Positions 7,229 to 33,342 of a stretch of DNA of 64,000 nt are shown here, one piece after another. Numbering within the stretch: position 1 is the first letter of the stretch; each line of letters begins with the position of its first letter. Origin of the DNA: Algibacter lectus (GTDB lineage Bacteria; Bacteroidota; Bacteroidia; Flavobacteriales; Flavobacteriaceae). The notes below the pieces were generated by a model. The model made no database searches, was not told the origin of the DNA, and saw only the letters and a program-made list of their open reading frames with translations. The translations under genes and the position numbers were made by a program. The stretch spans positions 1-64,000 of the forward strand of contig NZ_FOLN01000004.1 in assembly GCF_900112395.1 (NCBI RefSeq), given 5' to 3'.

Positions 7229-7242
7229 TAAAAAATTTCATT

Positions 7243-11241: not shown

Positions 11242-11342
11242 ATAAAGGTGCTAAACTTAAACAAAACAGTTAAGTTATTAATCCTGTTTTATCTAGTATC
11301 TTTTTTCTAATCTCATCAAAATAGATTCCTTCTTCTTATTTT

Positions 11343-12263: not shown

Positions 12264-12283
12264 TTTATACTGAATTATTAATA

Positions 12284-13753: not shown

Positions 13754-13773
13754 AATATTAAATTTTAGAACGT

Positions 13774-14946
13774 TTATTGTTTAACTGTTATATCAAATGC
13801 ATCTAACCTACTTTCAACACCAGAATTTGTAAGTAAAATGATTACTTTTTCATTTTCTCCTGCTTCAAAAGTTATAGCATGCTTTTTGAAAACATCATCT
13901 ACCCTACCAACATTATTATCTGTTCTAGAAGCAATAATGTTTGCGGCTAACTTGGCCTCATCTAGACTTGTTGCATTTGTACTTACTATAGATACAGTAA
14001 CATCTCCGAAAGCATTTTCTTCAAATGCACTGAAATAAGTTAATACATAAGTTGCTCCTGGAGTTACTTCTATTTCCTGATAACCAACTCTGGTACCATC
14101 TGCTGGAAATTTAGATGCTTGTAATCCTTCTGGCAAAATACCTTCGGCTTTTGAATTAATTTGAAATACACTACCCCAAGCACTACTACTTGGTGCTCTC
14201 CAAGAATCTCTGCCATCTCCAGAGCCGTCAAACAAACTATTATCCTCGAAACCAGGCTCTCCAATTTCTGGCTGTGGAATTGTAGGTACAGCTTGGTTTA
14301 CAGTAACCAATTTTTCAGTGTAATTAGATTTACCAAGGTTATCGGTAACCGTTAAGCCAACCGTATACTCTCCTGGTCCAGGAAAAGAAAATATTAATTC
14401 TTGATCTTGTAATGTTGCCGGTGGCAAAGCTGTTATTTGACTTTCCAAGTCTGAGATATTTTGTAATACTTCATCTGAAAGTGCTGCTTCAGCCGCGACT
14501 AATTGAGCTTCAAAATCAACAATCTCTGCTTCTAGTACATCAATCTTAGCTTGATTAGTTTCACATGGTAATTTAAACTCGCGTTTAGCAATCTCTTTTT
14601 CAATAGCTACAACAGATGCTCTTTCAGCCTCTATTTTAAGATTTAAAATAGGCAAGTCTTTATTAATAAAAGTAACGCCATCTGCAGGAGTTATTGACCA
14701 TTCATACATTGTTCCGTTAACAGCTAAATTAGAACCTGCTTGAAAATTAAAATCATAGTTAGCCCATAATTCATTTTTTTCGCAGTCAAATTCAGAAGAT
14801 GTAACATCAGTTAAATTATAAAATGGTGTTGGGCCTGTAATATCTTCCAAATCGCCAACATTAGCTAAGTCATCGCTAACACAAGAAGTTAAAGATACAA
14901 TAGCACCCAAAACTATATACTTTATATTATACAAATATTTATTCAT
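13774..14946 (-). CDS. PKD-type lipoprotein with helical insertion and binding-module-like domain
   Basis: A 390-residue lipoprotein with lipobox VSLTSC (Cys22). A PKD-like fold appears split: its first part is at about 80-99 (YEWSITPADGVTF) and its last strands at 182-217 (QELIFSFPGPGEYTVGLTVT). Between them residues about 100-178 are rich in Ala, Glu, Lys and Leu without Pro until 175, predicting a long helical hairpin or coiled coil (IEAERASVVAIEKEIAKREF, KIDVLEAEIVDFEAQLVAAE). The C-terminal 160 residues resemble the end domain of the neighbouring PKD protein (YQEIEVTPGATYVLTY, DAFDITV). It follows susD1 by 12 bp. Surface alginate binding is likely; the helical arm may dock to SusC/SusD, which is inference. 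Confidence 0.75.
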   Translation of the reverse strand: MNKYLYNIKYIVLGAIVSLTSCVSDDLANVGDLEDITGPTPFYNLTDVTSSEFDCEKNELWANYDFNFQAGSNLAVNGTMYEWSITPADGVTFINKDLPILNLKIEAERASVVAIEKEIAKREFKLPCETNQAKIDVLEAEIVDFEAQLVAAEAALSDEVLQNISDLESQITALPPATLQDQELIFSFPGPGEYTVGLTVTDNLGKSNYTEKLVTVNQAVPTIPQPEIGEPGFEDNSLFDGSGDGRDSWRAPSSSAWGSVFQINSKAEGILPEGLQASKFPADGTRVGYQEIEVTPGATYVLTYFSAFEENAFGDVTVSIVSTNATSLDEAKLAANIIASRTDNNVGRVDDVFKKHAITFEAGENEKVIILLTNSGVESRLDAFDITVKQ

Positions 14947-14958
14947 AATTATCAGGTT

Positions 14959-16560: not shown

Positions 16561-16566
16561 AACTAA

Positions 16567-19500
16567 TTAAAATTGAAAGTTAACCCCTGCTGAAATTGTT
16601 CTAACCACAGGACCATCTCCTCTTTGGTAGCCTGATGTTAATGGCGTATTTGCGTTATCAGATGTTTGACCTGAAGCATCCGGATTAAACCCTTCATACC
16701 CTTTAGCAGTAAAGAATAATAAATTCTCACCAGTGATATAAAACCTTAATCTATCAATCTTATTTTTTGATGTAAATGATTCTGGTAATGAATAACCAAA
16801 TGTTACATTTCTTAAAGTTACAAAAGATGCATCTTGAATATGATCATCTGTAAACCTTCTATGAACCGTTAAATCTCTATCCGGGAAACTAGCTAACTCA
16901 TTTACTGCAGACTCACTAGCATAATATAATTGATCTAAATCGGCAACTCTTACTTCAGCTCCGTGAGATCCTTGCCATTGGAATGAAAAGTCGAAATCTT
17001 TATATCTAAAATCAGAATTGAATCCCCATGTGAAATCAGGGTAAGGACTTCCTAGTTCCGTTCTATCTTCATCATCAATAATTCCATCATTGTTTAAATC
17101 TTTTACATAAACATCTGCAAAATCATTATTAAACCTATTGAAAGGATTATCTACCCATTCTAAAGGAATTTCTTTTTCGTAAACCCAACCGTAAAAAGAA
17201 GTTATTGGCTGTCCTACTCGAGCAATAAATTGTGTTGCTCGAGTGTCTTGTGCAATTTCAGAAATAATTTGCTCACTTTTACCTAAACTCTCAACCGTAT
17301 TTCTGTTTAAAGAAAACTGACCCGATGCAGACCAGCTGAAGTCTTCGGTAGTAATAAGTCTGGAATTCAATTCTATTTCAACACCTTCATTTTTAACCTC
17401 ACCTATATTCTGCAACCAATTATCTGTACCATAAGAACTAGGTACCGGAGCAAAAAGTATTAAATCTTCACTTGTTCTAGTATAATAATCTAAGGTTAAA
17501 TTTAAAAGACTTCTACCGAAAGTAACATCAATACCTGGGTTAAATTCTATTAATTTCTCCCATCCTAAATCTTGATTTGCTAAAGTTAATCCTTTAACAC
17601 CTGTTTGACCGTTATAACCAACAGTACCGAATGTTTCTTCAAATCTGTAAAGCGACTGAAAGATGTTATTTGAAATTTCATTAGAACCTGAAACACCGTA
17701 ACTAGCTCTTAACTTTAAAAATGTTACAAACTCACTAGACGATAAGAAATTTTCTTTTGACATTACCCAACCTGCAGAAGCTGCTGGAAAGAAACCAAAT
17801 CTTGTGTTTGGACCAAATCTTGTACTACCATCTCCCCTTGCTGATACTTGTAATAAGTATTTTTCATTATAGTTATAATCTATTCTACCAAAATATGACA
17901 CTAACTTATCGGTTCCATTGTCCGTATAAGTGGTACCTCCATCTGCAAGCGCGATATTATTATTGAAATCATTTGTGTAACCAACAGCCTCCGATTCTTG
18001 AACGAAAAAATCACGTTGTGTATACTCGAAGCCAAGAATAGAATTTAAATTATGCTTACCAAAATTCTTCTTGTATTTAAGAAGTGACTCAAAAGCGAAT
18101 TGATTTAACTCATCCCTACCTTCTGCACGGAAAGATTCTTGATCTCTATTCTCTTGTCCATATAGATAATCGGCCTCATTAGATTTATTATGTCTAAAAA
18201 CACCTGAAATAGTCTGTCTAAAATTAAGACCTTTAGCTAATTCAAAATCAATATAAGATGATGCATTTAAACTTAATTTTCTCTTTTTTCTCGATCTCTC
18301 TAAGAAATGCACTAAAGGATGTACGTTTTTAGTTGTAGATAAAGTTAAGCCTCCCGATGTTAAATCGCTAGCCACTGGCAGCCCTGTATTGGGATCTCTA
18401 AGAATTTGTCTAGGATTATTTGGGTCTTGTGTAAAAACATGATCAAAAGCTCTAGAAAACCCATAACTTCCTTCTTGAAGGTTTTCAAATAATTTACCTG
18501 CATCTGTAGATGTGCCTACATCTGTAGAGAAATTAGTAACATACTTTAAGTGCTCTTCATTTAAGTAAAGTGGCACATGCCCCATTTGTCTTAATGGATC
18601 TGTAAAACGCGCTGGTAATTTATTTTGGTCGTTGTAGTTAACATTTAAGTTAGCTCCAAACCTAATTTTCTTATTTTTAGATTTACTATCAACCTTTATT
18701 CTAGCATTGTATTTTTTAAAATTATCAGTTAATGCAATTCCTTCATCTTCAAGGTACCCTAAAGATGCTGTATAACTCGTTAATTCAGTTCCACCTCTTA
18801 CAGCTAAAGAGTGACTAGTAATTACACCACCATTAAAAACTTCATCTTGCCAGTTTTTTTCACCATCTCCAAGAGAAGCAATAAAATCCATGGCTTCAAG
18901 TTCGGCATAAGCTGTGTTGTAATCTCCTAGAATTCTATCATAGTTTGGACTATCTGTAGCTATACCGTCAATAACACCCTGTAACCCGTTTAACCTTGCT
19001 CTTTCATCAGCAATTGTTGTGTTAAAATTATCGTTTTTATTAGCATACTTATACCCCATAAACGTGTTATAAGAGAATTTTGTTTTCCCGGCAACACCTT
19101 TTTTAAGCGTTACCAAAATCACACCATTTGCACCACGAGAACCGTAGATTGCAACAGATGATGCATCTTTTAAAACACTTATTGATTCAATATCATTATT
19201 ATCAATAGAACTTAAAATATCAGCATCTGTACCTAAAACAATACCATCTACAACAATTAAAGGTGCCGACGATCCTGTAATAGACCCTGGACCTCTTAAT
19301 GTAATTTTAGGATCACCTCCAGCTTCAGATGATGCAACTTGAATTCTTAAACCCGCTACTTTGCCTTGAAGCGCATCTTCTACACGCGCAACAGAAACAT
19401 TTTCAAGATCTTTACCTGAAACCTTAGATAAAGCACTTGTTATTGTTTTTTGTTTTTGATCTCCATACCCAATAATAACAACCTCATTTAATTGAGCAAC

Positions 19501-19797
19501 GTCTTCTTGAAGCGAGATGTTTAAAGTATTTTGGCTTCCAACAATAATAGTTTGAGACACAAAACCGATATAAGAAACTTGTAGAATATCGCCTTCTTCA
19601 ACTTTTATCTCGAAAGCACCATCAAAATCGGTAGAAGCCCCTTTTGATGTGTTTTTAACGATAACATTTACCCCTGGAATAGGAATGCCATCTGTCGCTG
19701 AAACAACAACACCTTTAAGTTGTATGCTGCCCTGCGCAAATAAAGCAATATTGAATACCAACATCACTACTAAAATTAGTTTAGACTTTAAATTCAT
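16567..19797 (-). CDS. susC: SusC-like TonB-dependent outer-membrane oligosaccharide importer (pair 1)
   Basis: A 1076-residue SusC/RagA receptor from the ATG at 19795-19797; a TTG two codons upstream extends the frame but is unlikely. Residues 1-21 are a signal peptide (NIALFAQ). A carboxypeptidase-like domain covers about 25-105 (GVVVSATDGIPIPGVNVIVK). The TonB box region EVVIIGYG precedes the plug (EDALQGKVAGLRIQ, LIVVDGIVLG, VLKDASSVAIYGSRGANGVI). The barrel ends in an aromatic residue (SAGVNFQF). It should import alginate oligomers with SusD. The gene has a leader of about 350 nt carrying two GntR-type operators at its start and a possible antisense RNA in its middle. Confidence 0.93.
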   Translation of the reverse strand: MNLKSKLILVVMLVFNIALFAQGSIQLKGVVVSATDGIPIPGVNVIVKNTSKGASTDFDGAFEIKVEEGDILQVSYIGFVSQTIIVGSQNTLNISLQEDVAQLNEVVIIGYGDQKQKTITSALSKVSGKDLENVSVARVEDALQGKVAGLRIQVASSEAGGDPKITLRGPGSITGSSAPLIVVDGIVLGTDADILSSIDNNDIESISVLKDASSVAIYGSRGANGVILVTLKKGVAGKTKFSYNTFMGYKYANKNDNFNTTIADERARLNGLQGVIDGIATDSPNYDRILGDYNTAYAELEAMDFIASLGDGEKNWQDEVFNGGVITSHSLAVRGGTELTSYTASLGYLEDEGIALTDNFKKYNARIKVDSKSKNKKIRFGANLNVNYNDQNKLPARFTDPLRQMGHVPLYLNEEHLKYVTNFSTDVGTSTDAGKLFENLQEGSYGFSRAFDHVFTQDPNNPRQILRDPNTGLPVASDLTSGGLTLSTTKNVHPLVHFLERSRKKRKLSLNASSYIDFELAKGLNFRQTISGVFRHNKSNEADYLYGQENRDQESFRAEGRDELNQFAFESLLKYKKNFGKHNLNSILGFEYTQRDFFVQESEAVGYTNDFNNNIALADGGTTYTDNGTDKLVSYFGRIDYNYNEKYLLQVSARGDGSTRFGPNTRFGFFPAASAGWVMSKENFLSSSEFVTFLKLRASYGVSGSNEISNNIFQSLYRFEETFGTVGYNGQTGVKGLTLANQDLGWEKLIEFNPGIDVTFGRSLLNLTLDYYTRTSEDLILFAPVPSSYGTDNWLQNIGEVKNEGVEIELNSRLITTEDFSWSASGQFSLNRNTVESLGKSEQIISEIAQDTRATQFIARVGQPITSFYGWVYEKEIPLEWVDNPFNRFNNDFADVYVKDLNNDGIIDDEDRTELGSPYPDFTWGFNSDFRYKDFDFSFQWQGSHGAEVRVADLDQLYYASESAVNELASFPDRDLTVHRRFTDDHIQDASFVTLRNVTFGYSLPESFTSKNKIDRLRFYITGENLLFFTAKGYEGFNPDASGQTSDNANTPLTSGYQRGDGPVVRTISAGVNFQF

Positions 19798-19958
19798 AAT
19801 CAATTTAGTTTAATTTTTATTTGGTTTGGAATTTTTGCTCCAAAATTAATTGAACCCTATAATGCTCAAAAAACTCGATTATTTTAAGAGACATTTAACT
19901 CTTAAAGCAATCCTAAAAACAATATGAACTAACTATAATCTTAGTAATTTTGTAGAAC

Positions 19959-20133: not shown

Positions 20134-20163
20134 CTGGTTGACCAGATTGGTTTACCAAATATA
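20134..20163 (-). promoter_or_regulatory. Tandem GntR-type operators and -7 box of susC1
   Basis: CTGGTTGACCAG (20134-20145) and TTGGTTTACCAA (20147-20158) lie 13 bp apart. The second overlaps CAAATATA (20156-20163), which is TATATTTG on the minus strand, the -7 box of the susC1 operon. No -33 TTTG is seen at 19 bp. Binding would cover the start site. Confidence 0.8.
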
Positions 20164-20318
20164 TACAAAATTTTGTTAATTCTAGCCTTTTGATATATTT
20201 TAACTAAAAAAAAGTTAAAATTATATCGAAGTAATTCTATAAAACCTAAAAAGATAAATTTAAAAGACTTGTGTTTTCAAACTTTTTAAACTTACCCTAA
20301 TGGTTTTAAATTACCTAA

Positions 20319-20693
20319 TTATGCTTTATCTCCAAAATAAGACACCTCGCCACCACTTAAGAAATCTTCTCTCACAGGACTAAATGTATCAATTAGCTCA
20401 CCTGCTTCCAAACAAACAGCACTATGCATTAAATTAGGCTCAATATATACACCATCTCCAGCTTCTACAATTTGCTTTACTCCATCAATTTCAAATTCAA
20501 ATTTACCCGAAGCACAAAAAGTAGCTTGCGTATGAAAATGTTGATGTGGAGAACCTAATGCCCCCTTCTCAAATTTCACTCTTACCATCATAATTTGATT
20601 ATCGTAACCTAAGAATTTTCTTGATACTCCTCCACCAAGTTCTTCCCATTGCATGTCTTTTGTAATGACGTACTTTTCACTAAATCGCTTCAT
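20319..20693 (-). CDS. kdgF: KdgF-like cupin, unsaturated uronate ring-opening enzyme
   Basis: A 124-residue single cupin. Metal ligands are His50, His52, Gln56 (SPHQHFHTQ) and His90 (PNLMHSAV). The downstream segment IDTFSPVRED supplies Asp102, Phe104 and Arg108, matching the pattern of residues reported for KdgF active sites. KdgF converts the cyclic 4,5-unsaturated uronate released by lyases into its linear ketone form, speeding entry into the DEH pathway. It follows the PL17 exolyase gene by 76 bp on the same strand, so enzyme and substrate supplier share the PL17 operon. No signal peptide is present, so it acts in the cytoplasm. Confidence 0.9.
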   Translation of the reverse strand: MKRFSEKYVITKDMQWEELGGGVSRKFLGYDNQIMMVRVKFEKGALGSPHQHFHTQATFCASGKFEFEIDGVKQIVEAGDGVYIEPNLMHSAVCLEAGELIDTFSPVREDFLSGGEVSYFGDKA

Positions 20694-20769
20694 TTTTTTT
20701 TGTTTTTTATAATTTATTTAATCGCACTAAAACAAGAACATATCAAAATATAATTCTTGTTGTTTATTA

Positions 20770-23055
20770 TTATTTTAATTCTTTCAAGGTAAAAGCTCCT
20801 GTCCATGAAACAACTTCACCTTCAATAGTTACTTTATGGTCCGAACCTGCTTTATTATCCAAGTTAGAGATTACAAATAGCTTTGTTTTATTATTATCTG
20901 TTTCAACCTTTACAGCCGTGTATTCCGCAACATCATGAACAACTTCAACATGCTTTACATGGCTATATGCATTTTCGGCAAACTCAGACCTAGCAGTATA
21001 TGTTCCATGAGATTCTACAACCGATGCAAAAACAGTATTTTTAGTGTTTGTTTTACGAAGAATAAAAGCAGGTTCATTACGTAAATTATAATCTGGATCG
21101 TTAGCACCTATTTTTGCTAATATCATTTTATCACCTTTAGCAGTTGCAGATGTTATAGAATAAAATTTACCATTCGATAACCAGGTTAATTTAGCATTAT
21201 CCCCAAAAGAAACACCTTCAGCCTCTTTATACAAATGTTGGTAACCGTTATCCTTACCAAAAACCGTTGGGGTATTTAACTTATTATATTCAAAATTGGT
21301 TTGCATTAATTGTCCTAAATAGTAAAATGGAAAATCGTATTTATTAGATGTATTAGATACTACTTTCATGAAGTCTAAAAGGTACGGCTTAGCATAACTT
21401 TCATCATTTATAAACACCACTGTACGTTGCATTTCTGTACCAGGGTATGCATTGCTTTCTTTAGCACTTGCAACTTGTAGGTTTTTATTAGAAACATCAA
21501 ACACATACTTATTTGAATGATGTATACTTCCAATTTCATATTTACCCATAAAATGAGACGTTTCATTTTGAACCAACGTATTATGAGCTATGGACTGCTT
21601 AGCCCATGTTTTATTTTCTTTTAAGTAGTTTCCGCCACCTTTTTGTTCAATATTTACATAACGCGCTAAACCATAATCCTGAAGCACCTCATCACCATCT
21701 TCATAAAGCGAGTATGATAATTTATCGTAATGCCCATGGCTTAACCCTTGTGCTGCATATTTAAAAACAAGTTCTAAATCTTCGCTTCTTAATATACCAA
21801 CAGCACCCTCATCTCCGTTTTGCCCATCACTTAGTTCAATAGATTTTTTATCAAAAGACTTACCTAAACCTTCCTTAATACCTAAAGCAATACTTAAACC
21901 CGTATCATCTAAAACAACACGATCTTGCTTTTCAGCAATACTTAACAATTCTGGATTTTTACCTCCAAAATGATAAGCGATATCCACAGCAGTTACCACA
22001 GCACTCGTATAATAACTCATTCCTTTTTGCCCATCGTTTAGTGGAAAAAAGTCACCATCTGCATCACTCAAATTAATAAGCGCATCGACTGCTTTAATTA
22101 GTACACCATTTTTATATTCAAAAATATTTAACTCAGGTTTTACATTCTGAAGCGCTTCAGCAAATATTAAAAAAGGGTACATAGCATAACGTTGGTAGTA
22201 TGGTCCTTCGGTATAATATCCATCTGGAGAAAATGGCTCATCTAAATTACCATAGAATCCTAATTTCTGTCCTTCTACTTTTATAAATCCACCATCATTA
22301 TCTTTCATTCCAACTTTTAAATTGTCGGTTTTTAAACCATTTAAAGCATCTTCTAATAAAGCATCATTATCCATAACCAAGGCTATCATCCCAACAGCAA
22401 CATTACCCCATGTACTATGGTTGTGCACACGATTAAAAAACTGTGGATTTCCTTCGGAAATAAACTTTGCGAAAGGAATAAACAAATTATTTTCTAAAAC
22501 ATCACGATCTTCTGGGCTCAACCAATCATAAACACAGTCGTAAGCTTGCGCCGAATAGACCAACCAGTTAGCATCGTTTAAGCATTGCCAAAACAACTTC
22601 CCTCTTGCATAAGACCGAGTTTGTGGATGCACTGGCAATGTTGGATACAGCTTAGCATAAGCCATTAACATATCTTTTACGTACGTAGCATATTTTTCAT
22701 CGTCTAAAATTTGATACAAAACCCCTGCCTTTTGCATCATATAGAAGTTCTGCTTATGACGTTGGTGCGTATATCCTCCAGAAAAATCTTTAGGAACTGG
22801 AACTAGGATTCCAACCTCAATTTCTGCGTCGACCTCAGCTTTCGTTTCAGCCAAACTCTTATCAAAAATTGGAATATTCCCTAAATTTGCACGTATATCC
22901 CTTACTCCTTTTTTGGTTAAAACCAAACTTGGATGTCCACTTTCCGCTTCAGTAGTAGCGACTTCTACACTAGTATCCGAGACTTGCTCTTTACAAGAAA
23001 AAACTAACATTAAAACAAGCATGATACTGAGCAAATTGACTCCTAAATTCTTCAT
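20770..23055 (-). CDS. Oligoalginate lyase, polysaccharide lyase family 17
   Basis: A 761-residue exo-type alginate lyase from the ATG at 23053-23055; the longer frame to a TTG at 23088 runs into the operator array and is rejected. The lipobox MLVFSC gives Cys21, so it is a lipoprotein, probably periplasmic-facing. The alpha-barrel N-domain carries NRVHNHSTWGN (Asn212-His213) and DGYYTEGPYYQRYA, which hold the catalytic Asn, His and Tyr of the family. The heparinase II/III-like beta-domain includes GHYDKLSYSLYEDG and SIAHNTLVQN. It should trim alginate oligomers to unsaturated monomers. Its promoter with two operators is directly upstream and kdgF follows. Confidence 0.93.
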   Translation of the reverse strand: MKNLGVNLLSIMLVLMLVFSCKEQVSDTSVEVATTEAESGHPSLVLTKKGVRDIRANLGNIPIFDKSLAETKAEVDAEIEVGILVPVPKDFSGGYTHQRHKQNFYMMQKAGVLYQILDDEKYATYVKDMLMAYAKLYPTLPVHPQTRSYARGKLFWQCLNDANWLVYSAQAYDCVYDWLSPEDRDVLENNLFIPFAKFISEGNPQFFNRVHNHSTWGNVAVGMIALVMDNDALLEDALNGLKTDNLKVGMKDNDGGFIKVEGQKLGFYGNLDEPFSPDGYYTEGPYYQRYAMYPFLIFAEALQNVKPELNIFEYKNGVLIKAVDALINLSDADGDFFPLNDGQKGMSYYTSAVVTAVDIAYHFGGKNPELLSIAEKQDRVVLDDTGLSIALGIKEGLGKSFDKKSIELSDGQNGDEGAVGILRSEDLELVFKYAAQGLSHGHYDKLSYSLYEDGDEVLQDYGLARYVNIEQKGGGNYLKENKTWAKQSIAHNTLVQNETSHFMGKYEIGSIHHSNKYVFDVSNKNLQVASAKESNAYPGTEMQRTVVFINDESYAKPYLLDFMKVVSNTSNKYDFPFYYLGQLMQTNFEYNKLNTPTVFGKDNGYQHLYKEAEGVSFGDNAKLTWLSNGKFYSITSATAKGDKMILAKIGANDPDYNLRNEPAFILRKTNTKNTVFASVVESHGTYTARSEFAENAYSHVKHVEVVHDVAEYTAVKVETDNNKTKLFVISNLDNKAGSDHKVTIEGEVVSWTGAFTLKELK

Positions 23056-23076
23056 ATTTTTTTGGAAATAGTTTAA

Positions 23077-23101
23077 TTGGTTTACCAAATTGGTTTACCA
23101 A
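23077..23101. promoter_or_regulatory. Tandem GntR-type operators of the PL17-kdgF operon
   Basis: Two identical sites TTGGTTTACCAA at 23077-23088 and 23090-23101, spaced 13 bp. The second overlaps the -7 box. They lie from the -7 element into the early transcript, the place for a repressor. Confidence 0.85.
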
Positions 23102-23129
23102 ATATAAGTATAATTATCACTTGCACAAA
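23099..23129 (-). promoter_or_regulatory. Promoter of PL17-kdgF operon
   Basis: On the minus strand TTTG (23126-23129), 19 bp and TATATTTG (23099-23106) match the Bacteroidota consensus. The leader to the PL17 ATG is about 37 nt. Confidence 0.8.
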
Positions 23130-23711
23130 AGATTGCCTAACAAAATCTAGATTTTAACAAACCCCAAAGACCCATTTGCTCAAAAAAAGCACACACATAT
23201 AAAACTAAGGAACAATAAGTTAAACAAAAAAAATACTCAACAAAAACACATAAACCCCTATCCTAATTAAACCTAAATTATATAATCTCTATTTCAAGCA
23301 ATAAAATCACAACATACAATCTAAAAACAACTTATTCGATAATAATTTTGTATATATATTTTCTTACCTTAGTTGCATATCATTTTCAATATGCACAACA
23401 ACAACTCCAGCTAACTACTAAACTCTTAAAACTAAGAACTATCTAAAACAAGTAACGTTTTATTAAAAACCAACATCTACCTCAATGAGACAATAAACTA
23501 ACCAATAAAACCAATAAGCTAAACACGCAAATCAAGATAACGACAAAGGCTTTTATTTAATCAAAAAACCAAAAAAGACTACGTAATTATTTCAATTTCA
23601 TAAAAAATTAACACATATTTTATCATGTACACAAAACCTTCAAATCCCACGAGTAATCTAGCTTTCTTAACAATTTCGTAACATTCGACATGTAAAACAA
23701 AACCAACCACT

Positions 23712-23742
23712 CTTGTTTTTATGAAATATTTAACTATATTTG
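23712..23742 (+). promoter_or_regulatory. Promoter of susC2-susD2
   Basis: CTTG (23712-23715), a 19-bp spacer and TATATTTG (23735-23742). The -33 element has one mismatch to TTTG. The predicted leader is about 220 nt. Confidence 0.7.
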
Positions 23743-23777
23743 GTAAACCAAAGTGGTAAACCAAAGTGGTTTGGCAG
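23740..23777. promoter_or_regulatory. Tandem GntR-type operators of susC2-susD2
   Basis: TTGGTAAACCAA (23740-23751) and GTGGTAAACCAA (23753-23764) are spaced 13 bp. A third, half-conserved GTGGTTTGGCAG follows at 23766-23777 in the same phase. The first overlaps the -7 box. Confidence 0.85.
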
Positions 23778-23971
23778 TTTAAATTCAGGTTTTTTTGACC
23801 AAAAAAAAGATTTCAAACTAATCCTTAAAATCTACGAGAGATAAAAATGAAAAACTAAAAAAGAAACTACAAAAAGAAAACGAAAAAGCAATCCGAGATA
23901 TAGCCTGAATCACCACTAGAAACAGTTCATATCTGGAAAATTATTCCAAACTAATCTAATTTATTAAACTA

Positions 23972-26900
23972 ATGAAAAAACACAAAAGATTTAAAAAGGT
24001 TTACCTTTTATTATTATCCTTTTGTTTTGCATTTACCTTAAGTGCACAACAAAAAACAATAACAGGTACAGTAACCTCAGCAACGGATAACCAACCTCTA
24101 CCGGGCGTTAACGTTATTGCAAAAGGCACAAACACTGGTGCTTCTACCGATTTTGATGGTAATTACTCTATAACAGTTGAAGGTAGCAACACCATTCTTA
24201 GCTTTAGCTATGTAGGTTTTGTACAAAAAACAGTTACTGTTGGAAACCAATCGAAAATTAACGTAGCTCTAGATGAAGATGTTAGTGCTTTAGAAGAAGT
24301 TGTCGTTGTTGGATATGGCGCTCGAAAAAAGAGTGATGTAACAGGCTCTGTTTCTTCAGTGAAAACTGCAGAGTTAACAGCATTTCCAGTTCTAGATGCA
24401 ACACAAGCGTTACAAGGTCGTGCTGCCGGTGTAAACGTTCAATCTAACAATGGTGGAGAGCCAGGAGCACCTATTAGCATCTCTATTAGGGGTAATACTT
24501 CAATTAATGCGAGTAGTAACCCACTAATTGTTGTAGATGGCTTCGTTGGTGCCAATATGCCACAAGCAGGAGATATTGAATCTATGCAAATATTAAAAGA
24601 TGCTTCTGCAACCGCTATTTACGGTTCACAAGGTTCAAATGGTGTTGTTTTAGTAACAACTAAAAAAGGTAGATCTGGCAGATTAAATATTGAATTAAAT
24701 TCTACTTACTCCGTACAGTCTACAGCAAATGAACTAAACTTATTAAACGCTAATGATTTTACCGATTACCAAAACCAAGTTAGACAAAATGTTGCTATTA
24801 CAAACTCTACAACAGCAAGTCCATACATACAAGGTGACTTCGATACAGACTGGCAAGATTTAATTTACAGATCAGGAAGTGTTCAAAACCACCAACTATC
24901 TGTTTCTGGAGGCTCAGACAAAGTAAACTATTATGCATCGGGTACTTATTTTAACCAAGACGGTGTATTAGTTAATTCTGGTTACGAAAGAGCTTCTTTC
25001 TTATCTAATTTAGATGCCCAAGTAACTGATAAATTAAAACTTGGAGTTAACTTAACAGGAGGTATAAGCACTAAAAATGGTGTTTCTACTCAATCTGATG
25101 GTTCTGTTACTGTTGGTGGAGATGATGTTGTTTCATTAGCAATGCGTTTTGCTCCAGATAAAGGTATATACAATGCAGACGGTTCGTTCACTACAAACGA
25201 TCAAGTAGGTGACGAAGTTGATAACCCATGGGCTGTTGCAACTCAAAGAGATGACGATACTGAAATAGAAGATTTTAGAGCAAATTTTTATGCTAATTAC
25301 GATATCGTAGAAGGGCTAGCTTTTAAAACAACTTTCGGTATAAGCACAAAAAATACATTTAGAGGTATTTATATGCCAAGAACATTAGAAGTTACTGCAG
25401 GTGGTAGCACTCAAGGTAGAGCTATTATGTCTGAAGATAAAACTAAAAATGTATTAACTGAGAACTACTTAACCTATAATAAAGAAATAGGAAAAGGAAA
25501 TTTAACTTTATTAGCTGGTCTTTCTTACCAAAAAACTACGAGTAAAGGTTTTTCTAATGAAGGTACAGGAACAATTTCAGATTCTTTCTCATACTACGGT
25601 TTATGGACCGCTACAAACTTAATCCAACAAGGATCAGGAGATATATATGTTACAGAAAAAGAAATCCAGTCTCAATTTGGAAGGATAAACTTTGATTATG
25701 ACGATAAATATTTAATTACAGCTACTATAAGACGTGATGGAGCTTCAAATTTTGCTACCAACGAAAAGTATGCTATTTTCCCTTCTGGTGCATTAGGATG
25801 GAAAGTTTCCAATGAAGATTTCTTAAAAGATAACGAAACTATTTCTAACTTAAAATTAAGAGCTAGTTACGGTGTAACTGGAAACCCTTCTATTGGTGCT
25901 TATGAATCTTTAGCTAGTTTAGAAAATATTTACGCATCTAGTAATGGAACAACAGTACAAGCTGTTACACCTTACCAACCAGCAAATCCTGATTTAAAAT
26001 GGGAGTCTTCTTACCAATTTAATGCTGGTGTAGATTTAGCTTTATTAAACAATAAAATCTCACTTTCTGTAGATTATTACAACATCGACACGAAAGATTT
26101 AATTATGAGAGATAATGGATTACCTTGGTATTTAGGTTTCTATAACGACCAGATTTTAAAGAATGTTGGTGAAATTAATAACACTGGTATTGAAGTCTTT
26201 TTAAGTACTAAAAACATTACTAATGATAACTTTAGCTGGAGTACAGACTTTGTATTCTCTAAAAACAAAAACACAGTTACTACGTTAATTAACGGAGATG
26301 ATTGGTTTGGAAATGGGGCACCAAGTTACTTTAGCGTTAACAATACTTACATCCTTAGAGAAGGTGAAGAAGTAGGCTTATTCTACGGGTTAGATTACGC
26401 AGGAGTATACCAAGGAGGTACTGCACCAGCAGGAACAGCTACATTACCTGGAGGCGTAGAAGGAGATCCTTTATTTTATGATATAGCTGATGAAGACGGT
26501 GTTTCTGACGGTGTTATTGATGACGGTGACAGAACAGTAATTGGTAACCCTAATCCAGATTTCACTTGGGGTATTACAAATGATTTCAGGTATAAAAACT
26601 GGGATTTAAACTTATTTTTCCAAGGATCTCAAGGAGGTGAAATTTTTAACATGACGAACGTTCAGTTAAATAATGGTGATGCAAACACAACATATGCTTA
26701 TTTCAATAACGCATGGACACCTTCAAATACAGATACCGACCAACCACGTGTTGGAAACAACAGTAACAGAGAAATTTCTTCACGATTTGTAGAAGACGGA
26801 AGCTATGTTAGATTAAAAAACCTTGCAGTAGGTTACAACTTACCTTCAGATGTTCTTAAAACTATAGGTGTAGAAAAATTAAGACTATCAGTTAGTGCAC

Positions 26901-27073
26901 AAAACTTATTAACAATCACTAATTATTCTGGTCTAGATCCAGAGGTTAATTATGCTGGTGCTCAAGGTGGCCAAAATGGAAATAACACCGCAAGTAACAC
27001 TGTTAGAGGATTCGACTTTGGAAATTACCCAACAGTACAGTCTTTTAGTTTCAGCCTTAATTTAACATTTTAA
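23972..27073 (+). CDS. susC: SusC-like TonB-dependent outer-membrane oligosaccharide importer (pair 2)
   Basis: A 1033-residue SusC/RagA receptor. A signal peptide ends near residue 25 (FTLSAQ). The carboxypeptidase-like domain GTVTSATDNQPLPGVNVIAK follows, then the TonB box region EEVVVVGYG, the plug (TQALQGRAAGVNVQ, NPLIVVDGFVG, ILKDASATAIYGSQGSNGVV) and a barrel ending SFSLNLTF. It is clearly a different protein from the first SusC of the locus, so the two pairs may import alginate oligomers of different size or composition. Shared operator arrays indicate common control. susD2 starts 21 bp downstream. Confidence 0.93.
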   Translation: MKKHKRFKKVYLLLLSFCFAFTLSAQQKTITGTVTSATDNQPLPGVNVIAKGTNTGASTDFDGNYSITVEGSNTILSFSYVGFVQKTVTVGNQSKINVALDEDVSALEEVVVVGYGARKKSDVTGSVSSVKTAELTAFPVLDATQALQGRAAGVNVQSNNGGEPGAPISISIRGNTSINASSNPLIVVDGFVGANMPQAGDIESMQILKDASATAIYGSQGSNGVVLVTTKKGRSGRLNIELNSTYSVQSTANELNLLNANDFTDYQNQVRQNVAITNSTTASPYIQGDFDTDWQDLIYRSGSVQNHQLSVSGGSDKVNYYASGTYFNQDGVLVNSGYERASFLSNLDAQVTDKLKLGVNLTGGISTKNGVSTQSDGSVTVGGDDVVSLAMRFAPDKGIYNADGSFTTNDQVGDEVDNPWAVATQRDDDTEIEDFRANFYANYDIVEGLAFKTTFGISTKNTFRGIYMPRTLEVTAGGSTQGRAIMSEDKTKNVLTENYLTYNKEIGKGNLTLLAGLSYQKTTSKGFSNEGTGTISDSFSYYGLWTATNLIQQGSGDIYVTEKEIQSQFGRINFDYDDKYLITATIRRDGASNFATNEKYAIFPSGALGWKVSNEDFLKDNETISNLKLRASYGVTGNPSIGAYESLASLENIYASSNGTTVQAVTPYQPANPDLKWESSYQFNAGVDLALLNNKISLSVDYYNIDTKDLIMRDNGLPWYLGFYNDQILKNVGEINNTGIEVFLSTKNITNDNFSWSTDFVFSKNKNTVTTLINGDDWFGNGAPSYFSVNNTYILREGEEVGLFYGLDYAGVYQGGTAPAGTATLPGGVEGDPLFYDIADEDGVSDGVIDDGDRTVIGNPNPDFTWGITNDFRYKNWDLNLFFQGSQGGEIFNMTNVQLNNGDANTTYAYFNNAWTPSNTDTDQPRVGNNSNREISSRFVEDGSYVRLKNLAVGYNLPSDVLKTIGVEKLRLSVSAQNLLTITNYSGLDPEVNYAGAQGGQNGNNTASNTVRGFDFGNYPTVQSFSFSLNLTF

Positions 27074-27094
27074 GAATTTTAAAAAGCATATAAA

Positions 27095-28630
27095 ATGAAA
27101 AAAACTAAATATATATTTTTAATGATGATAGGACTAGGTTTAGGACTATCTGCAGTAGGGTGTTCCGATTTAGAGGAAGAACCTGTAGGATTGTTATCTC
27201 CAGATGGATTTTACCAAACAACAGATGATATACAATTAGCCGTAAACGCTTCTTTAACTCATGCAATTAATGAAGAGATTTGGGGTAGAAAATTATCAAT
27301 TGCGTTATTATTACGTTCTGACATGGTCGATCTTGCATCAACTGAAACCCGAAGAGTAGAAATGAATACTCACACTATTTCTGGTAATAACGAAATGGTT
27401 TTTGACCCATGGACAAGAATTTACCTAGGTATTGCAGCAGCTAATGATGCAATTGCTGGCGGTGAAAAAGTTGAGGTTGCCGATGAGTTTAAAAATCCTG
27501 TTATCGCACAAGCTTACTTTGCAAGAGCTTTTTATTACTTTCATTTAGTAAGATTATTTGGAGATGTACCTTATATCACAGAACCTGTAACAGACATAAA
27601 TGCATCTAGTTCTTTAAGTTCTACTCCAGAAGCCCAAGTTTATGAAAACATCATATCAGATTTACAGTACGCTGAACAATGGTTACCAAACACAGTTACT
27701 TCTAGAGCGACACCTTCTAAAGCCGCTGCAAAATCTTACCTAGCTTTAGTTTACTTAACTTTAGCAGGAACTAATGACAATGCATATTTTCAATTAGCTT
27801 ACAACAAAGCGAAAGAGGTTATTACTAATAAAGCGACATATGATGTAGATTTAGACCCTGATTTTCAGACTCTATTTAACGCTAACAAAATTGATGCTTC
27901 TAAAGAACCAATATTTGCATTAGATTATAATAATGTTGAAGCTTCTGATAACTCTTATGATCAGACTGCTCCAATGACAGGAGTTAGAGGTGATGACGAT
28001 GATCAAGGATGGTCTGTTGCTGTTCCAGCTATGGCTGTTTATGACTCTTTTGACGAGGACGACTACAGAAAACGTGTTAGCTTCCAAACAAGAGCAACTA
28101 TTGGCGGTACAGATGTTGACTATACAAATTTCACTCTAAGTGGTCATAGTAACGCTAAAAACAGACCTTACATTGCGAAATACACACGTTATCCTGGCCC
28201 ATATGCTCGTGGTAATAAAAGAGCAACAAGCCATAACTATTCGATGATACGCTATGCTGAAGTATTATTAATTGCTGCTGAAGCAGGAGTTGAAATTGGA
28301 GCTGCTGATGCTGTTGATCTTCTTAATGAAGTAAGAAGCAGAGCAAGAAACGGTGGTGATTCTACAAACGGTGCATATGTAGAAGAAACAATTGCAGCGA
28401 GTACAGTTCCTGCAGACCTTACAAGTATAACAGTTGCTGATGTACTTGAAGAACGTAGAATAGAACTTGCTTTTGAAGGTAAAAGATGGTATGACATTAA
28501 GAGAAGACAATTAGGTAATCAAGTTTTTAGCGCGTCTGGATATGAAGGAGCAAAACCTGACTGGAACTCAGCCGAGGATTATGACACACCAATCCCTCAA
28601 GATGAATTAGATAGAAACCCAAATTTATAA
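27095..28630 (+). CDS. susD: SusD-like outer-membrane glycan-binding lipoprotein (pair 2)
   Basis: A 511-residue RagB/SusD lipoprotein with lipobox LSAVGC (Cys23). SusD-like helices include QAYFARAFYYFHLVRLFGDV; the C-terminal part has MIRYAEVLLIAAEAGVEIG, EERRIELAFEGKRWYDIKRR and IPQDELDRNPNL. It ends at NPNL, a few residues short of the common NPNL-QNPGY tail, a minor feature. It partners susC2. The operon holds only this pair, with no enzyme, and ends at the strong terminator at 28731-28789. Confidence 0.93.
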   Translation: MKKTKYIFLMMIGLGLGLSAVGCSDLEEEPVGLLSPDGFYQTTDDIQLAVNASLTHAINEEIWGRKLSIALLLRSDMVDLASTETRRVEMNTHTISGNNEMVFDPWTRIYLGIAAANDAIAGGEKVEVADEFKNPVIAQAYFARAFYYFHLVRLFGDVPYITEPVTDINASSSLSSTPEAQVYENIISDLQYAEQWLPNTVTSRATPSKAAAKSYLALVYLTLAGTNDNAYFQLAYNKAKEVITNKATYDVDLDPDFQTLFNANKIDASKEPIFALDYNNVEASDNSYDQTAPMTGVRGDDDDQGWSVAVPAMAVYDSFDEDDYRKRVSFQTRATIGGTDVDYTNFTLSGHSNAKNRPYIAKYTRYPGPYARGNKRATSHNYSMIRYAEVLLIAAEAGVEIGAADAVDLLNEVRSRARNGGDSTNGAYVEETIAASTVPADLTSITVADVLEERRIELAFEGKRWYDIKRRQLGNQVFSASGYEGAKPDWNSAEDYDTPIPQDELDRNPNL

Positions 28631-28730
28631 TAGAACTATTTATTTATAGATTTAATATTTGTAACCTTTTGAAGTTTTCTATATTGGTATAAACCAAATA
28701 GGCAGAAAACTAAAGATTATAAATAACTAA

Positions 28731-28789
28731 AACAGATTCTAATAATATTCAACAACATCTTGAATATTATTTTGAATCTGTTTTTTTTT
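28731..28789 (+). terminator. Strong terminator after susC2-susD2
   Basis: AACAGATTC-AATAATATTCAA pairs with TTGAATATTATT-GAATCTGTT over 21 bp with a small bulge, then a long T-run. A second hairpin just upstream (AGTTTTCT at 28672-28679 with AGAAAACT at 28703-28710) stands closer to the stop codon. Confidence 0.85.
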
Positions 28790-29725
28790 ACTTTAATTTC
28801 TAGATTTAGCTCACTCAATAACAAAAAAAAAGACAAGGTAATGATAAACAAATATCACAGACACCTACAAACAACCTTCTGTATAAACTAAACTTCTCTA
28901 AACTACCACTTGAAGACACCTACCCCAATTCCCTACTAAAATCTCTTCTTAATGAGCATAAACAGTTTTCATCTTCAAACAAACTTACCACAGTAGCTCG
29001 AGTAAACTAAGAATAAAGATTATCCTTAAAGCTTTATATTCCCGTCTCACTAATATATTTTCTACACACAATAGAAAAGCGATAACTAAACAACACAGAA
29101 AGCGTTTAAAAGCGAATAGCCTATCGCCTAATGATTACCTGCAAAACTTTATATAACACTCTTAAAAGCGCCCTTCGTACTAAAAAAATACCACAAAGAT
29201 TTGCTGATTCATCGCTATCTATATAAAGCTATTGAACTAAAAATAAATTGTATAGTTAGAAATTACAAAACAAATACACCCAAACAATTATTATCATCAT
29301 TCTTGTGATGCTTTATAATTTAGCAGGCATTCGAAATAAAACACTGCATTTAATGACTTTTAAAACCTCTAAAAAATAACATATTTTTACAATGAGCTTA
29401 ATAAGCAATACATCGCATTTTACATTATTTACTAAATATTTAAACGTAAATATTTACAGCTCATATTTTTTTTTAACGACAAAAGAGTATCCGAGTTAAA
29501 ACATTTTTATCTGATTATTTATTATTTCAATATGAAACTTTTCCGCGCAAGCGCATACAGTCCTAATTAGGAAAAACAATTAGAAGAAATAGAATCTGGA
29601 AGTTTTAATACTTATAACACTATAGTAAATCACGAAAACCAATCCCCCTAAACTTAATAAATACTACAGGCTCTAAATAAGAATCTCCTATATATCTTAA
29701 CATCAATAGTAAACATTGGCTCAAG

Positions 29726-29763
29726 AAAAAAGGCATTGAAAATTAATTTTCAATGCCTTTTTT
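29726..29763 (-). terminator. 38-bp palindromic terminator after PL6
   Basis: A perfect palindrome centred at 29744/29745, with stem core GGCATTGAAAATT and flanking A6 and T6 runs. It can terminate in both directions and lies 26 bp after the PL6 stop. Confidence 0.9.
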
Positions 29764-29788
29764 ACTATTTCGATAATAAAATCAACGA

Positions 29789-32104
29789 CTAATACATCAA
29801 CTTCATTTTTAAATTTTCTTCGGTTTTAATTTCACCAGAATTACTAATATCATTATCAGATGCATAGTTCTCCTTTGCTCCCCACAGAATAGAAACATAA
29901 TCAACCTTATTATCTTTGAAAGTGTTTTTAGCAATGTTTACATAAACAATACCTCTATGGTTTAACAACATCTTGTTTTGCTCGTTGGCGCCACAATTAG
30001 TAAAGGTACTATTAGTAACTAATAGATTTCCGCCAATAGTCGACTCATCATAACCACCACGATAATAATCTATAACGTTTTGTTTTACATTATCGAACGT
30101 ACAGTTATTTACGGTTAAATACTCTGTGTTATAATCGCCTTTATCGTTTGTTTCTTCAGATAATTCTAAACCATTTTCACAGTTTGAAATAGATGTGTTT
30201 TCAAAAGTGATTTTTTCTGAAAAAGACTGCTTGTAAACCTTTAAAACATAATTGAAATCACTGATATCACAACCAGAAACCGCTAATCCAAAATGATTAG
30301 ACATATTCTCTTTTAAACTAGCAAAAGCGTAGTTTGAATTATTTCCTTTTAAACTGACATATTTAAGCGTTAATATGCCTTTAGGGTTTAAAGAAAATAA
30401 AGGTGAACTACTTTCTCCAGAAAAAACAATTTGTGCTTTCGCTTTTTCTTGAGATTGTATTGTAATGCTTTTATTAATTTCTATCGATTTAGAAATTTGA
30501 TAAACTCCCGCATTTAAAGCTATAATATCACCTTTTTGCGCTTCGTTAATTTTAGCTTGAAGTTCTTCTGCGTTGGCAACAGTAAAGATGTTAGCTTCTT
30601 TTACTGCTATCTCGTTAGAATACCAACTTGCTCCATATTTAGATTTATCTAAAATATTAGGATCTGGCATATCAGCATTAACAAAAGCACCTATTTTATT
30701 TTGATTTAATCTTGAATTCCCTGCTAAATCTTTCGTTATTGTATTAAATTCAAAACCTACATAAGGTGTTACTTCACCTGGTACACCTACCGGAATTGAT
30801 ATGGTTTCAGAAACTTTTTTCAACTCTAATTTAGCATTCTGTAAACCACCGTTGTAATCTTTAAACTCTACATCGCTATTATTAATAATGTTACTTTTAA
30901 AAAGAACACCGTCTGCTTTATCATGCTCCACAACTGGTAATAAATCTCCTTCTGTATTGTAAATAACATTGTTTGCAACAACAGTTCTAATAGGTCGTGC
31001 AGAACGAATTTCCGACTTTGGCAACACATCAGATTGTGCAATATTAGTACCAACTCCAAACTGCCAAGGTGATTTACAATTTACGTAAGTATTATATGCA
31101 ACCACAACATCTGTAACTTGATTGTATCTATTTAATGGTGATTTTGGTATACCATTCATAACAGCCAATGGACTTCTGAAGTTTTCACCAATAATATTAT
31201 AGAAATAATTATTAATAACCCAATGCCCCGTGTTTACAAGTCTAATTCCTCCGTAGTTTTTATTAACACCATCTCCAATAAAATAATTACCATCAATAAC
31301 AGCATAGTTACCGTGGCGCGTTACTACAGAACCTTCACTTTTATAGAACACATTATTTCTAATTTCGTTGAAATTTGTTTTACTCGAAATAACTTCAACC
31401 TCTCCATTACATTCTTCAAATAAATTATTTGCAATAGTTGTATTACTCGGAGACATAGACGTAAAACTACTACCTAATTGGATAGATTCTCCTCGAGCCC
31501 CTCCTTTTCTCGGTCTTGGACCAAAATGGTTATTTACAATTTGATGATAATTTCTAATACTTTGGTTTCCTTTTAAATCAACTCTAAGGGTTGGACCGCC
31601 ATTAGTTTTACCTGCAATATAACAATGATCGACTTTATTATGTTTTCCGAAAAGTTGAATCCAAAGGTCATCTTTATCACGTTGTTTTTGGTTGTAATCT
31701 AAAATCACACAGTTGGTAACTCTAGAATAGTTGGCAACTTTCTCCTCACTAGTTCTAAACGCGATAACATTACTTGTGGGTGTGTACCCATTTCTAAAAA
31801 ACAAGCCTTCTACAACTAAGTAATTTCCGGCAATTTCTAAATTAGAAACACCTTCTATAAATACTTGGCCAGGCGTTTCTGCTTTTAATGTAATTGGAGC
31901 ATTTTCAGTTCCTTCACCTACAAATTTTATTTCTACGTTTTCCCAAACACCGTTTGCCAAAACAATATTATCTCCGGCTTTAACATTTTTAATAGCCTCG
32001 TACAATTCCTTATTGGTGCTTACTAAAGTACCTGAATCTTCAACTTTTCCGTTACAAGAAAAACATAAAACAACTACCAATAAAAGGCTAAACAACTTAT
32101 TCAT
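29789..32104 (-). CDS. Alginate lyase, polysaccharide lyase family 6 (two beta-helix domains)
   Basis: A 771-residue lipoprotein from the ATG at 32102-32104 (MNKLFSLLLVVVLCFSC, Cys17). The longer frame to 32179 crosses a terminator-like hairpin and is rejected. The N-terminal right-handed beta-helix carries PL6 features: LRVDLKGNQ with the probable catalytic Lys178, and NNHFGPRPRKGGARGESIQL, whose arginines at 197-204 include the partner. A second beta-helix begins near residue 505 (NAEELQAKINEAQKGDIIAL) and repeats the opening pattern of the first (NKELYEAIKNVKAGDNIVLA). This two-domain plan is known for some PL6 enzymes. It should cut alginate outside or at the outer membrane. It follows the LTD protein gene in one transcription unit. 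Confidence 0.9.
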   Translation of the reverse strand: MNKLFSLLLVVVLCFSCNGKVEDSGTLVSTNKELYEAIKNVKAGDNIVLANGVWENVEIKFVGEGTENAPITLKAETPGQVFIEGVSNLEIAGNYLVVEGLFFRNGYTPTSNVIAFRTSEEKVANYSRVTNCVILDYNQKQRDKDDLWIQLFGKHNKVDHCYIAGKTNGGPTLRVDLKGNQSIRNYHQIVNNHFGPRPRKGGARGESIQLGSSFTSMSPSNTTIANNLFEECNGEVEVISSKTNFNEIRNNVFYKSEGSVVTRHGNYAVIDGNYFIGDGVNKNYGGIRLVNTGHWVINNYFYNIIGENFRSPLAVMNGIPKSPLNRYNQVTDVVVAYNTYVNCKSPWQFGVGTNIAQSDVLPKSEIRSARPIRTVVANNVIYNTEGDLLPVVEHDKADGVLFKSNIINNSDVEFKDYNGGLQNAKLELKKVSETISIPVGVPGEVTPYVGFEFNTITKDLAGNSRLNQNKIGAFVNADMPDPNILDKSKYGASWYSNEIAVKEANIFTVANAEELQAKINEAQKGDIIALNAGVYQISKSIEINKSITIQSQEKAKAQIVFSGESSSPLFSLNPKGILTLKYVSLKGNNSNYAFASLKENMSNHFGLAVSGCDISDFNYVLKVYKQSFSEKITFENTSISNCENGLELSEETNDKGDYNTEYLTVNNCTFDNVKQNVIDYYRGGYDESTIGGNLLVTNSTFTNCGANEQNKMLLNHRGIVYVNIAKNTFKDNKVDYVSILWGAKENYASDNDISNSGEIKTEENLKMKLMY

Positions 32105-32133
32105 AAAAAGGTTTTTGATAAATTTAAAATAAC

Positions 32134-32172
32134 AAAAAAGAAGGCCAATTACAACAAAAGACCTTCTTTTTA
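32134..32172 (-). terminator. Terminator-like hairpin between LTD-protein gene and PL6
   Basis: AAAAGAAGG (32136-32144) pairs with CCTTCTTTT (32162-32170); on the minus strand a T-rich tract follows. It lies between the LTD-protein stop (32184) and the PL6 ATG (32104). No separate PL6 promoter is visible in the remaining 30 bp, so partial read-through or RNA processing is likely. Confidence 0.7.
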
Positions 32173-32183
32173 AAAACAACTAA

Positions 32184-33245
32184 CTACTCAACTATAATTT
32201 TTTTAACCAAGCTTCCTTCTAATGCGTTTATTTTTAAAAGATAAACACCACTATTTAAACTTGAAATATCTAATTTATTATTTACTAAATTCTTTTCTGA
32301 AATTAATCTTTTACCAACAATACTAAACATTTCTACAGAAGAAACATTTACATTATCGGCATCTATTTTAATATGATCTTGCGCTGGATTTGGATAAATC
32401 TTAAATTTTGATGCAAGTACATTTTTATCAACAGAAAGCACGTTTGTATTTGCTGCGCCAGGCGTTCCGTAATAACTCGTAGAACCATAAACACCTACGC
32501 TTGGGTCTGAAAACACCCAACTACCATTTACTAACTGTACACTTACATCATCATCCAAAGATGCATTTCCATTATAACAAGACGACCCTGACAACTGAGT
32601 AAAAGAGCCATCCCAACTAGGAAGCAATTGTAAGTTTGGAATACCATCTGGTTTTCCGCTTCCCGCTAAATTTGTAGCATTATATCCAAAATCATACTCA
32701 AATCTATCTATTTCAACAAAATCCGTTGTATCTACTTCAGGATCACTAATAATCGGCATTAATAACCTTAAACCATCTATCTCATCATCAATTCCATCTT
32801 CGTCAACACTACTATTACATCCTCCTACTCCGTCATCAAAACTATTAGAATTATTAAACGTAGGAAAATTAGACCCTGTTCCTGAACCAGAAACCAATGG
32901 TGTTGGTGATATTACACCATACTGATAAGATGAGACTAAACCACCATTAACAGCAGCATCACTATTTGATGTCAATAACAAGTAGCCATTAGCCGGAACA
33001 ATTAAAGACCCTATAATAAGATGCGATCTTTTACTTGAAGAACCATCTCTAATAGTCCATCCTTCAATATCAATATCAGCACTCGTAGTATTCATAATCT
33101 CAAACCATTCCCCTTGAGCTTCACTTGATGTGGAAGGATCTGGTAAAAACTCAGTAAATATTATATCTCCAGGAGAAGATGTGAATTGAGCGTGCGCAAA
33201 AGCTGCAAGCATAAAAGAAAAAAGAAAAAGTAGTTTTGTTTTCAT
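32184..33245 (-). CDS. Secreted lamin-tail-domain protein with type IX secretion signal
   Basis: A 353-residue exported protein. Residues 1-20 are a signal peptide (MLAAFAHAQ). Residues about 22-130 form a lamin-tail domain (GDIIFTEFLPDPS, GEWFEIMNTTSADIDIEGWT, ANGYLLLT). The C-terminal 75 residues are a type A sorting domain of the type IX secretion system (FKIYPNPAQDHIKI, SVEMFSIVGKRLI, LDISSLNSGVYLLKI, KKIIVE). It should be secreted or anchored at the surface through SprA-type translocons, one of which is encoded in this window. No catalytic motif is seen. It heads the transcription unit with PL6 and has its own operator array, so it is tied to alginate; surface binding of the polymer is inferred. 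Confidence 0.85.
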   Translation of the reverse strand: MKTKLLFLFSFMLAAFAHAQFTSSPGDIIFTEFLPDPSTSSEAQGEWFEIMNTTSADIDIEGWTIRDGSSSKRSHLIIGSLIVPANGYLLLTSNSDAAVNGGLVSSYQYGVISPTPLVSGSGTGSNFPTFNNSNSFDDGVGGCNSSVDEDGIDDEIDGLRLLMPIISDPEVDTTDFVEIDRFEYDFGYNATNLAGSGKPDGIPNLQLLPSWDGSFTQLSGSSCYNGNASLDDDVSVQLVNGSWVFSDPSVGVYGSTSYYGTPGAANTNVLSVDKNVLASKFKIYPNPAQDHIKIDADNVNVSSVEMFSIVGKRLISEKNLVNNKLDISSLNSGVYLLKINALEGSLVKKIIVE

Positions 33246-33276
33246 ATCTAGCCTGTTTTAGTTTGTGAATAGTACT

Positions 33277-33314
33277 CTGGAAAACCAAATTGGTTAACCA
33301 GATTGGTTTTCCAA
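33277..33314. promoter_or_regulatory. Triple GntR-type operator of the LTD-PL6 unit
   Basis: CTGGAAAACCAA (33277-33288), TTGGTTAACCAG (33290-33301) and TTGGTTTTCCAA (33303-33314) repeat with exact 13-bp spacing. The last overlaps the -7 box. Confidence 0.85.
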
Positions 33315-33342
33315 ATATATACATTATTTCGAGGTATGCAAA
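33312..33342 (-). promoter_or_regulatory. Promoter of the LTD-PL6 unit
   Basis: On the minus strand TTTG (33339-33342), 19 bp and TATATTTG (33312-33319). The predicted leader is about 60 nt. Confidence 0.8.

Follow-up and report, generated by a model that had tools for sequence, protein, structure and literature searches.

Tandem 13-bp-phased palindromes at the alginate promoters of Algibacter lectus and related Flavobacteriaceae as candidate operators of AusR-type GntR repressors

Introduction

The closest described counterpart of the system analyzed here is AusR of Zobellia galactanivorans, a GntR repressor which, as summarized in passages of papers citing the primary work, acts at single, double, or triple operators and is released by alginate breakdown products (PMC7874173, PMC8286568, PMC8073546). 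The Zobellia regulon, as portrayed in those passages, shares with the A. lectus locus a GntR-family regulator, alginate lyase and SusC/D targets, and double or triple operators. Another regulator with dimers stacked on a tandem operator is the FadR-type GntR protein NanR of Escherichia coli, which reads direct repeats, (GGTATA)3, with cooperativity ascribed in the sections concerned to a 32-residue N-terminal extension (PMC8012715). Operators of the UxuR type, which serve hexuronate regulators, contain GT-N2-AC within a TKGT/ACMA palindrome; strict tandem phasing is not described in sections 5, 10, and 17 of the survey that defines them, and its table lists no Bacteroidetes FadR-subfamily regulators (PMC4494728). 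Our literature search, with the primary Zobellia AusR paper outside its scope, returned neither a paralogue code nor a 13-bp phasing for GntR operators.

We analyzed a 64,000-nt stretch of A. lectus DNA (contig NZ_FOLN01000004.1), hereafter the window, together with the rest of the genome and the corresponding loci of relatives. A preliminary description of the window had reported phased palindromes at four alginate promoters, proposed a GntR protein encoded in the locus as their binder, and left AusR unnamed. The best reading is the AusR switch as in Zobellia, known to us from citing papers; the repressor switch itself is already known from that relative. The analysis would extend it to many flavobacteria by sequence alone, and 13-bp-phased dyads fused to TAnnTTTG would provide a simple and specific signature for recognizing alginate regulons in genomes.

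Results and discussion

Alginate locus and site arrays in the window

Algibacter lectus is a seaweed-eating marine bacterium. Its GntR/FadR-type regulator gene is located inside the alginate locus, as in AusR-type alginate regulons, where it is sixth in the proposed susC1 operon and is flanked by the PL7 and MFS genes (Table 1). Strand and spacing suggest that this operon is co-transcribed. The listed PL17 frame opens at 23088, within the array, and the true start is therefore probably the in-frame ATG at 23055. A 2409-aa open frame (38413-45642), near two TonB-type genes, adjoins the locus.

Table 1. Positions of genes, site arrays, and −7 boxes in the window (by coordinate), followed by phased arrays elsewhere in the A. 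lectus genome
Feature	Position	Strand	Remarks
Proposed susC1 operon	8319..19803	-	susC1, susD1, hypothetical, PKD protein, PL7 lyase, ausR, MFS, SDR
GntR/FCD regulator, AusR-like	10482..11186	-	proposed binder; Pfam GntR 4.6e-17, FCD 2.3e-24
susC1-operon array	20134..20158	-	two TTGGTnnACCAA-like sites, 20134-20145 and 20147-20158
TATATTTG −7 box, susC1 promoter	20156..20163	-	TTTG overlaps site 20147-20158
PL17 alginate lyase and cupin (KdgF-like) genes	20319..23055	-	
PL17-kdgF array	23077..23101	-	sites 23077-23088 and 23090-23101, both perfect
TATATTTG −7 box, PL17 promoter	23099..23106	-	
TATATTTG −7 box, susC2 promoter	23735..23742	+	
susC2-susD2 array	23740..23777	+	sites 23740-23751 and 23753-23764, degenerate site 23766-23777
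susC2 and susD2	23972..28630	+	
LTD/Por-tail protein and PL6-type lyase	29789..33245	-	Pfam Chondroitinas_B
LTD-PL6 array	33277..33314	-	three sites, starts 33277/33290/33303
TATATTTG −7 box, LTD-PL6 promoter	33312..33319	-	
Phased array	contig 16:114969		before PL7-type lyase with lipoprotein-like start (L012:8019-8822)
Triple array	contig 25 (L011)		before susC3-susD3
Pair	contig 25 (L011)		before PL7 / kinase-6PGDH fusion / Nramp / PL7 gene run
Pair	contig 25 (L011)		before second GntR gene (GntR2)

The four window promoters carry nine TTGGTnnACCAA-like sites with at most two mismatches each, plus a highly degenerate tenth, with exact 13-bp steps within each array. This agrees with the ten sites, one of them degenerate, reported earlier. 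The tenth site reads GTGGTTTGGCAG, with four mismatches to TTGGTnnACCAA; it has a same-register counterpart at L017:6157 in Algibacter pacificus, a hint of retention. Single sites are weak evidence, since 61 matches with up to two mismatches occur in the window against a chance mean of 41.3. Phased pairs, at the same tolerance per site, number five at 13 bp, whereas 200 Markov sequences had 0.02 on average and 1 at most; each other spacing from 6 to 60 bp gave 0 or 1 pair. This confirms the exact 13-bp step at the four alginate promoters. The TTTG of TATATTTG is common to the −7 box and the outermost site at all four of them; the overlap with the −7 box noted in the preliminary description is thus borne out as the TTTG of TAnnTTTG. 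At the susC2 promoter, a TTG (23713-23715) precedes the −7 box by 19 bp, the most frequent gap in relatives.

The site agrees with the FadR-subfamily operator (TKGT/ACMA, GT and AC being separated by 2 or 3 nt), TTGGTnnACCAA having 2 nt. This is the spacing of UxuR; ExuR has 3 nt in the sections of the survey that treat it (PMC4494728), and the earlier comparison with UxuR/ExuR operators was therefore half right.

Phased pairs in the A. lectus genome

A genome-wide pair search with up to three mismatches gave 10 matches, corresponding to eight promoters, versus 2 with a reversed-pattern control. All eight belong to alginate loci and lie ahead of alginate lyase, SusC/D, LTD-PL6, or GntR-paralogue genes; four are those of the window, and the other four, including three on contig 25, indicate a second alginate locus in this genome, with a regulator related to the first. 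Each promoter carries two or three operator copies, in keeping with the multi-copy operators of an AusR-type alginate regulon. Occurrence of phased pairs at many unrelated promoters would speak against the proposal, and none was found among the eight. Single sites gave no such signal: TTGGTnnACCAA with up to one mismatch gave 399 matches per strand and its control 383, and a −7-anchored single-site search gave 27 matches against 51, its three exact matches all being window promoters. As single sites are indistinguishable from chance, we claim no single-operator promoters.

The contig-25 locus also encodes a SKI kinase-like domain fused to 6-phosphogluconate dehydrogenase (L011:14478-16358); this gene and that of an Nramp transporter are flanked by two PL7 lyase genes. 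Matches to the fusion and the transporter recur near GntR2 genes in genomes G173, G323, and G348; in G173 and G348, one of the PL7 genes is replaced by a PL6-like gene.

Spacing rule and co-occurrence with the regulator in relatives

We examined the neighborhoods of close relatives of the regulator, taking the best 80 of 144 loci; none of these is a Zobellia record, and many come from near relatives and are not independent events. In them, 120 site pairs lie 13 bp apart and 37 lie 26 bp apart. Across the scanned range of 2 to 60 bp, no other spacing occurs among these 157 pairs, counted with at most one mismatch per site; Markov sequences averaged 0.67 pairs in all. When neighboring sites were allowed up to three mismatches, 79 of 83 sources (the 80 loci, the window, L011, and L012) yielded 123 arrays, 74 double and 49 triple, and four-site arrays are present in L204 and L193.

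In the family-wide scan, a core pair with a gap of 0-30 bp was present in 111 of 397 genomes. Among the matches listed, a hand count placed 70 of 75 plus-strand occurrences at 13 or 26 bp; the remaining five are spread over four genomes in which the regulator search gave nothing at E≤1e-40. Pair and regulator strongly co-occur in 249 genomes searched with GntR2 as query at that threshold: both are present in 59, the pair alone in 11, and the regulator alone in 5 (Fisher p about 1e-39), so that 5 of 64 regulator-bearing genomes have no pair at the strict pattern. The motif search in related Flavobacteriaceae suggested in the preliminary description thus finds pairs and GntR gene in the same genomes. 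A 13-bp pair at L128 (G154), inside a reading frame of a genome without the regulator, was judged to be due to chance.

Register with the −7 box

TAnnTTTG is given as the −7 consensus of Bacteroides, and is reported also for a Flavobacterium promoter, in the relevant parts of two papers (PMC4747536, PMC2483708). In 102 of 116 arrays (the 123 minus seven with no annotated downstream gene) it stands in exact register at the first site, TTG falling on site positions 1-3, compared with no array when the second site is taken and 2 of 116 when the last site is read on the opposite strand; with one letter free to differ, the counts are 103, 0, and 29. The exact register holds for all 46 triples and 56 of 70 doubles. 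Its presence at the first site and absence at the second indicate that the arrays are anchored on the −7 box and extend downstream. The 14 arrays out of exact register include the PL17 promoters of L046, L050, L055, L058, L061, and L080, with GTATA before TTGG, and, of the eight promoters in A. lectus, those of the PL7 lipoprotein and GntR2. A −33 TTG lies 18-21 bp before the −7 TA in 73 of the 102 in-register arrays (59 at 19 bp), versus 0, 5, 5, and 7 in four control windows, and 29 of the 102 have no TTG at gaps 17-23. Seven of the 116 arrays precede ausR itself.

Proposed mechanism

We consider it highly probable (about 0.87) that an AusR-type GntR/FadR repressor of alginate catabolism uses the arrays as operators, with dimers stacked over the start site. 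Each 12-bp dyad would accommodate one AusR dimer; the first, fused to TAnnTTTG, would lie approximately over the transcription start, with one or two further dyads on its downstream side, each 13 bp from the last. Once occupied by dimers, the melting region and the start site would be closed to RNA polymerase, and alginate breakdown products would be expected to release the repressor. The interpretation in the preliminary description is supported in part. The attribution of the sites to the GntR protein is well supported: its domains, its co-occurrence with the pairs, and the AusR precedent of Zobellia all point to this protein as the probable binder.

At a 13-bp distance (about 1.24 turns, roughly 86 degrees at 10.5 bp per turn), adjacent dimers would probably touch. 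Alternatively, the sites may be read independently by dimers that make no contact, 13 bp being the tightest packing near the promoter. The AusR N-terminus is compatible with such a reading, as it has no extension as long as that of NanR (20 versus 38 residues before the aligned part); however, independent dimers should tolerate spacings of 14, 15, or 20 bp, and none of the 157 pairs has one, which leaves this alternative unlikely. Contact between neighboring AusR dimers would explain the absence of other spacings, and the same absence suggests the cooperative repression that the preliminary description had connected with the 13-bp phase.

The contact, if any, would differ from that of NanR, which is a solved relative of AusR (E 6.6e-11). 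NanR reads direct repeats, whereas the AusR sites are full palindromes at 13 bp. Tight binding in NanR-like stacking calls for at least two repeats at a defined spacing; what the present data give for AusR is the fixed spacing. AusR residue 21 aligns to NanR residue 39, and AusR residue 14 to PdhR residue 12; the AusR N-terminus is therefore PdhR-like and 18 residues shorter than that of NanR, and dimer contacts would have to be made by other means than those of NanR.

The GntR2 paralogue and the two central base pairs

GntR2, encoded on contig 25, is 63% identical to the window's GntR protein. Orthologues of GntR2 (77-81% identity) occur in G173, G348, and G323, each of which has an AusR copy elsewhere, and their loci show the same lattice fused to TATATTTG at the susC and lyase-side arrays; the GntR2 promoter of A. 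lectus has the lattice without the TATATTTG fusion. The two sets of loci differ in the two central base pairs of the sites. AC/GT or GC centers account for 16 of 23 sites at the GntR2 loci of the four genomes and 0 of 22 at their AusR loci (Fisher 4.9e-7), and for 0 of 236 sites in the 80 loci. The looser measure of any G or C in the center gives 18 of 23 versus 7 of 22 in the same genomes, and this weaker contrast (p 0.003) places the difference between GntR2 and AusR in the AC/GT and GC classes.

The recognition helix reads SR[S/G/N] in AusR and SRR in GntR2. Among 102 regulators in 100 loci, Arg52 is accompanied by AC/GT- or GC-type centers in 6 of 6 loci and 20 of 29 sites, whereas with other residues at position 52 none of the 90 site-bearing loci, and none of their 338 sites, shows such centers. 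The exceptions at the six Arg52 loci are nine of the 29 sites, which are not AC/GT, GC, or CG and include three AA sites in G323. By alignment offset (query 30 to FadR 24), residue 52 corresponds to FadR Thr46, which sections 5 and 10 of the survey describe as touching bases and as occupying a position correlated with the central nucleotides; the preference of arginine for G, stated in the same source, fits Arg52 with AC/GT or GC centers (PMC4494728).

In a forward test, two further GntR2 orthologues found by protein alone both had Arg52, and 9 of their 11 sites were AC- or GC-centered, the two exceptions being in G756. Selection was by protein similarity alone for L126, L193, L194, L199, L243, and L244; L131 (G370) was picked for its AC-centered operators and provides no independent test of the code, and the GntR2 locus of A. 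lectus was first met through its operators. The GntR2 genes form one lineage; in a tree of 37 regulators, two changes are required to account for Arg52, and the well-supported branches alone are compatible with one origin. At the order level (395 genomes), exact matches to AC-centered arrays were found in A. lectus only and added nothing to the code.

The arrays of G323 (L193:5082-5132) and G756 (L244:6408-6445) mix AA-centered with AC- or GC-centered sites, and the three AA sites in the former and two in the latter may be AusR sites. On balance, we favor a model in which two or more paralogous repressors in one genome share one −7-anchored lattice and are kept apart by residue 52 and the two central base pairs, with some mixed arrays able to take both inputs. 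AusR (Ser/Gly/Asn52) would then use mainly AA, TT, or TA centers, and GntR2 (Arg52) mainly AC/GT or GC. Such a paralogue code is possibly new; if true, a single residue and two base pairs would suffice to keep two alginate regulons separate, and the question of how duplicated repressors with an inherited operator architecture avoid cross-talk would become testable.

Other possible readers of the arrays

Another regulator might act on the arrays, for example the LacI-type protein encoded at 7177-8262, inside the locus, all the more as Bacteroides uronate genes are assigned to LacI-type regulators in a table of one comparative source (PMC3878776). We regard this as very improbable, because the site matches the FadR-subfamily consensus TKGT/ACMA with 2-nt spacing, as given in the sections cited above (PMC4494728), its center tracks the GntR recognition helix, and a homologue of the LacI-type protein is present in just 27 of 78 array-bearing loci in the stretches retrieved. 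A role of the palindromes in the 5' leader RNA, as a hairpin or stability element, would suit the second and third sites, which lie downstream of the −7 box in the presumed leader, but is most improbable, as the upstream half of the first site, located in the promoter, is equally conserved and conservation extends to sequence beyond mere pairing.

In 18 of the 116 arrays (L046:4924, L047:3162, L075:4776, L093:4755, and 14 more), the promoter carries a separate element, CGAAAACGTT, which starts 34-36 nt before the first site and overlaps the −33 box. It looks like a second candidate operator, perhaps of LacI type, at the same promoters. The 80 loci together contain only 19 copies, and the four window promoters lack the element. 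A homologue of the window's LacI-type protein is found in 8 of 16 loci that bear CGAAAACGTT and in 19 of 62 other loci.
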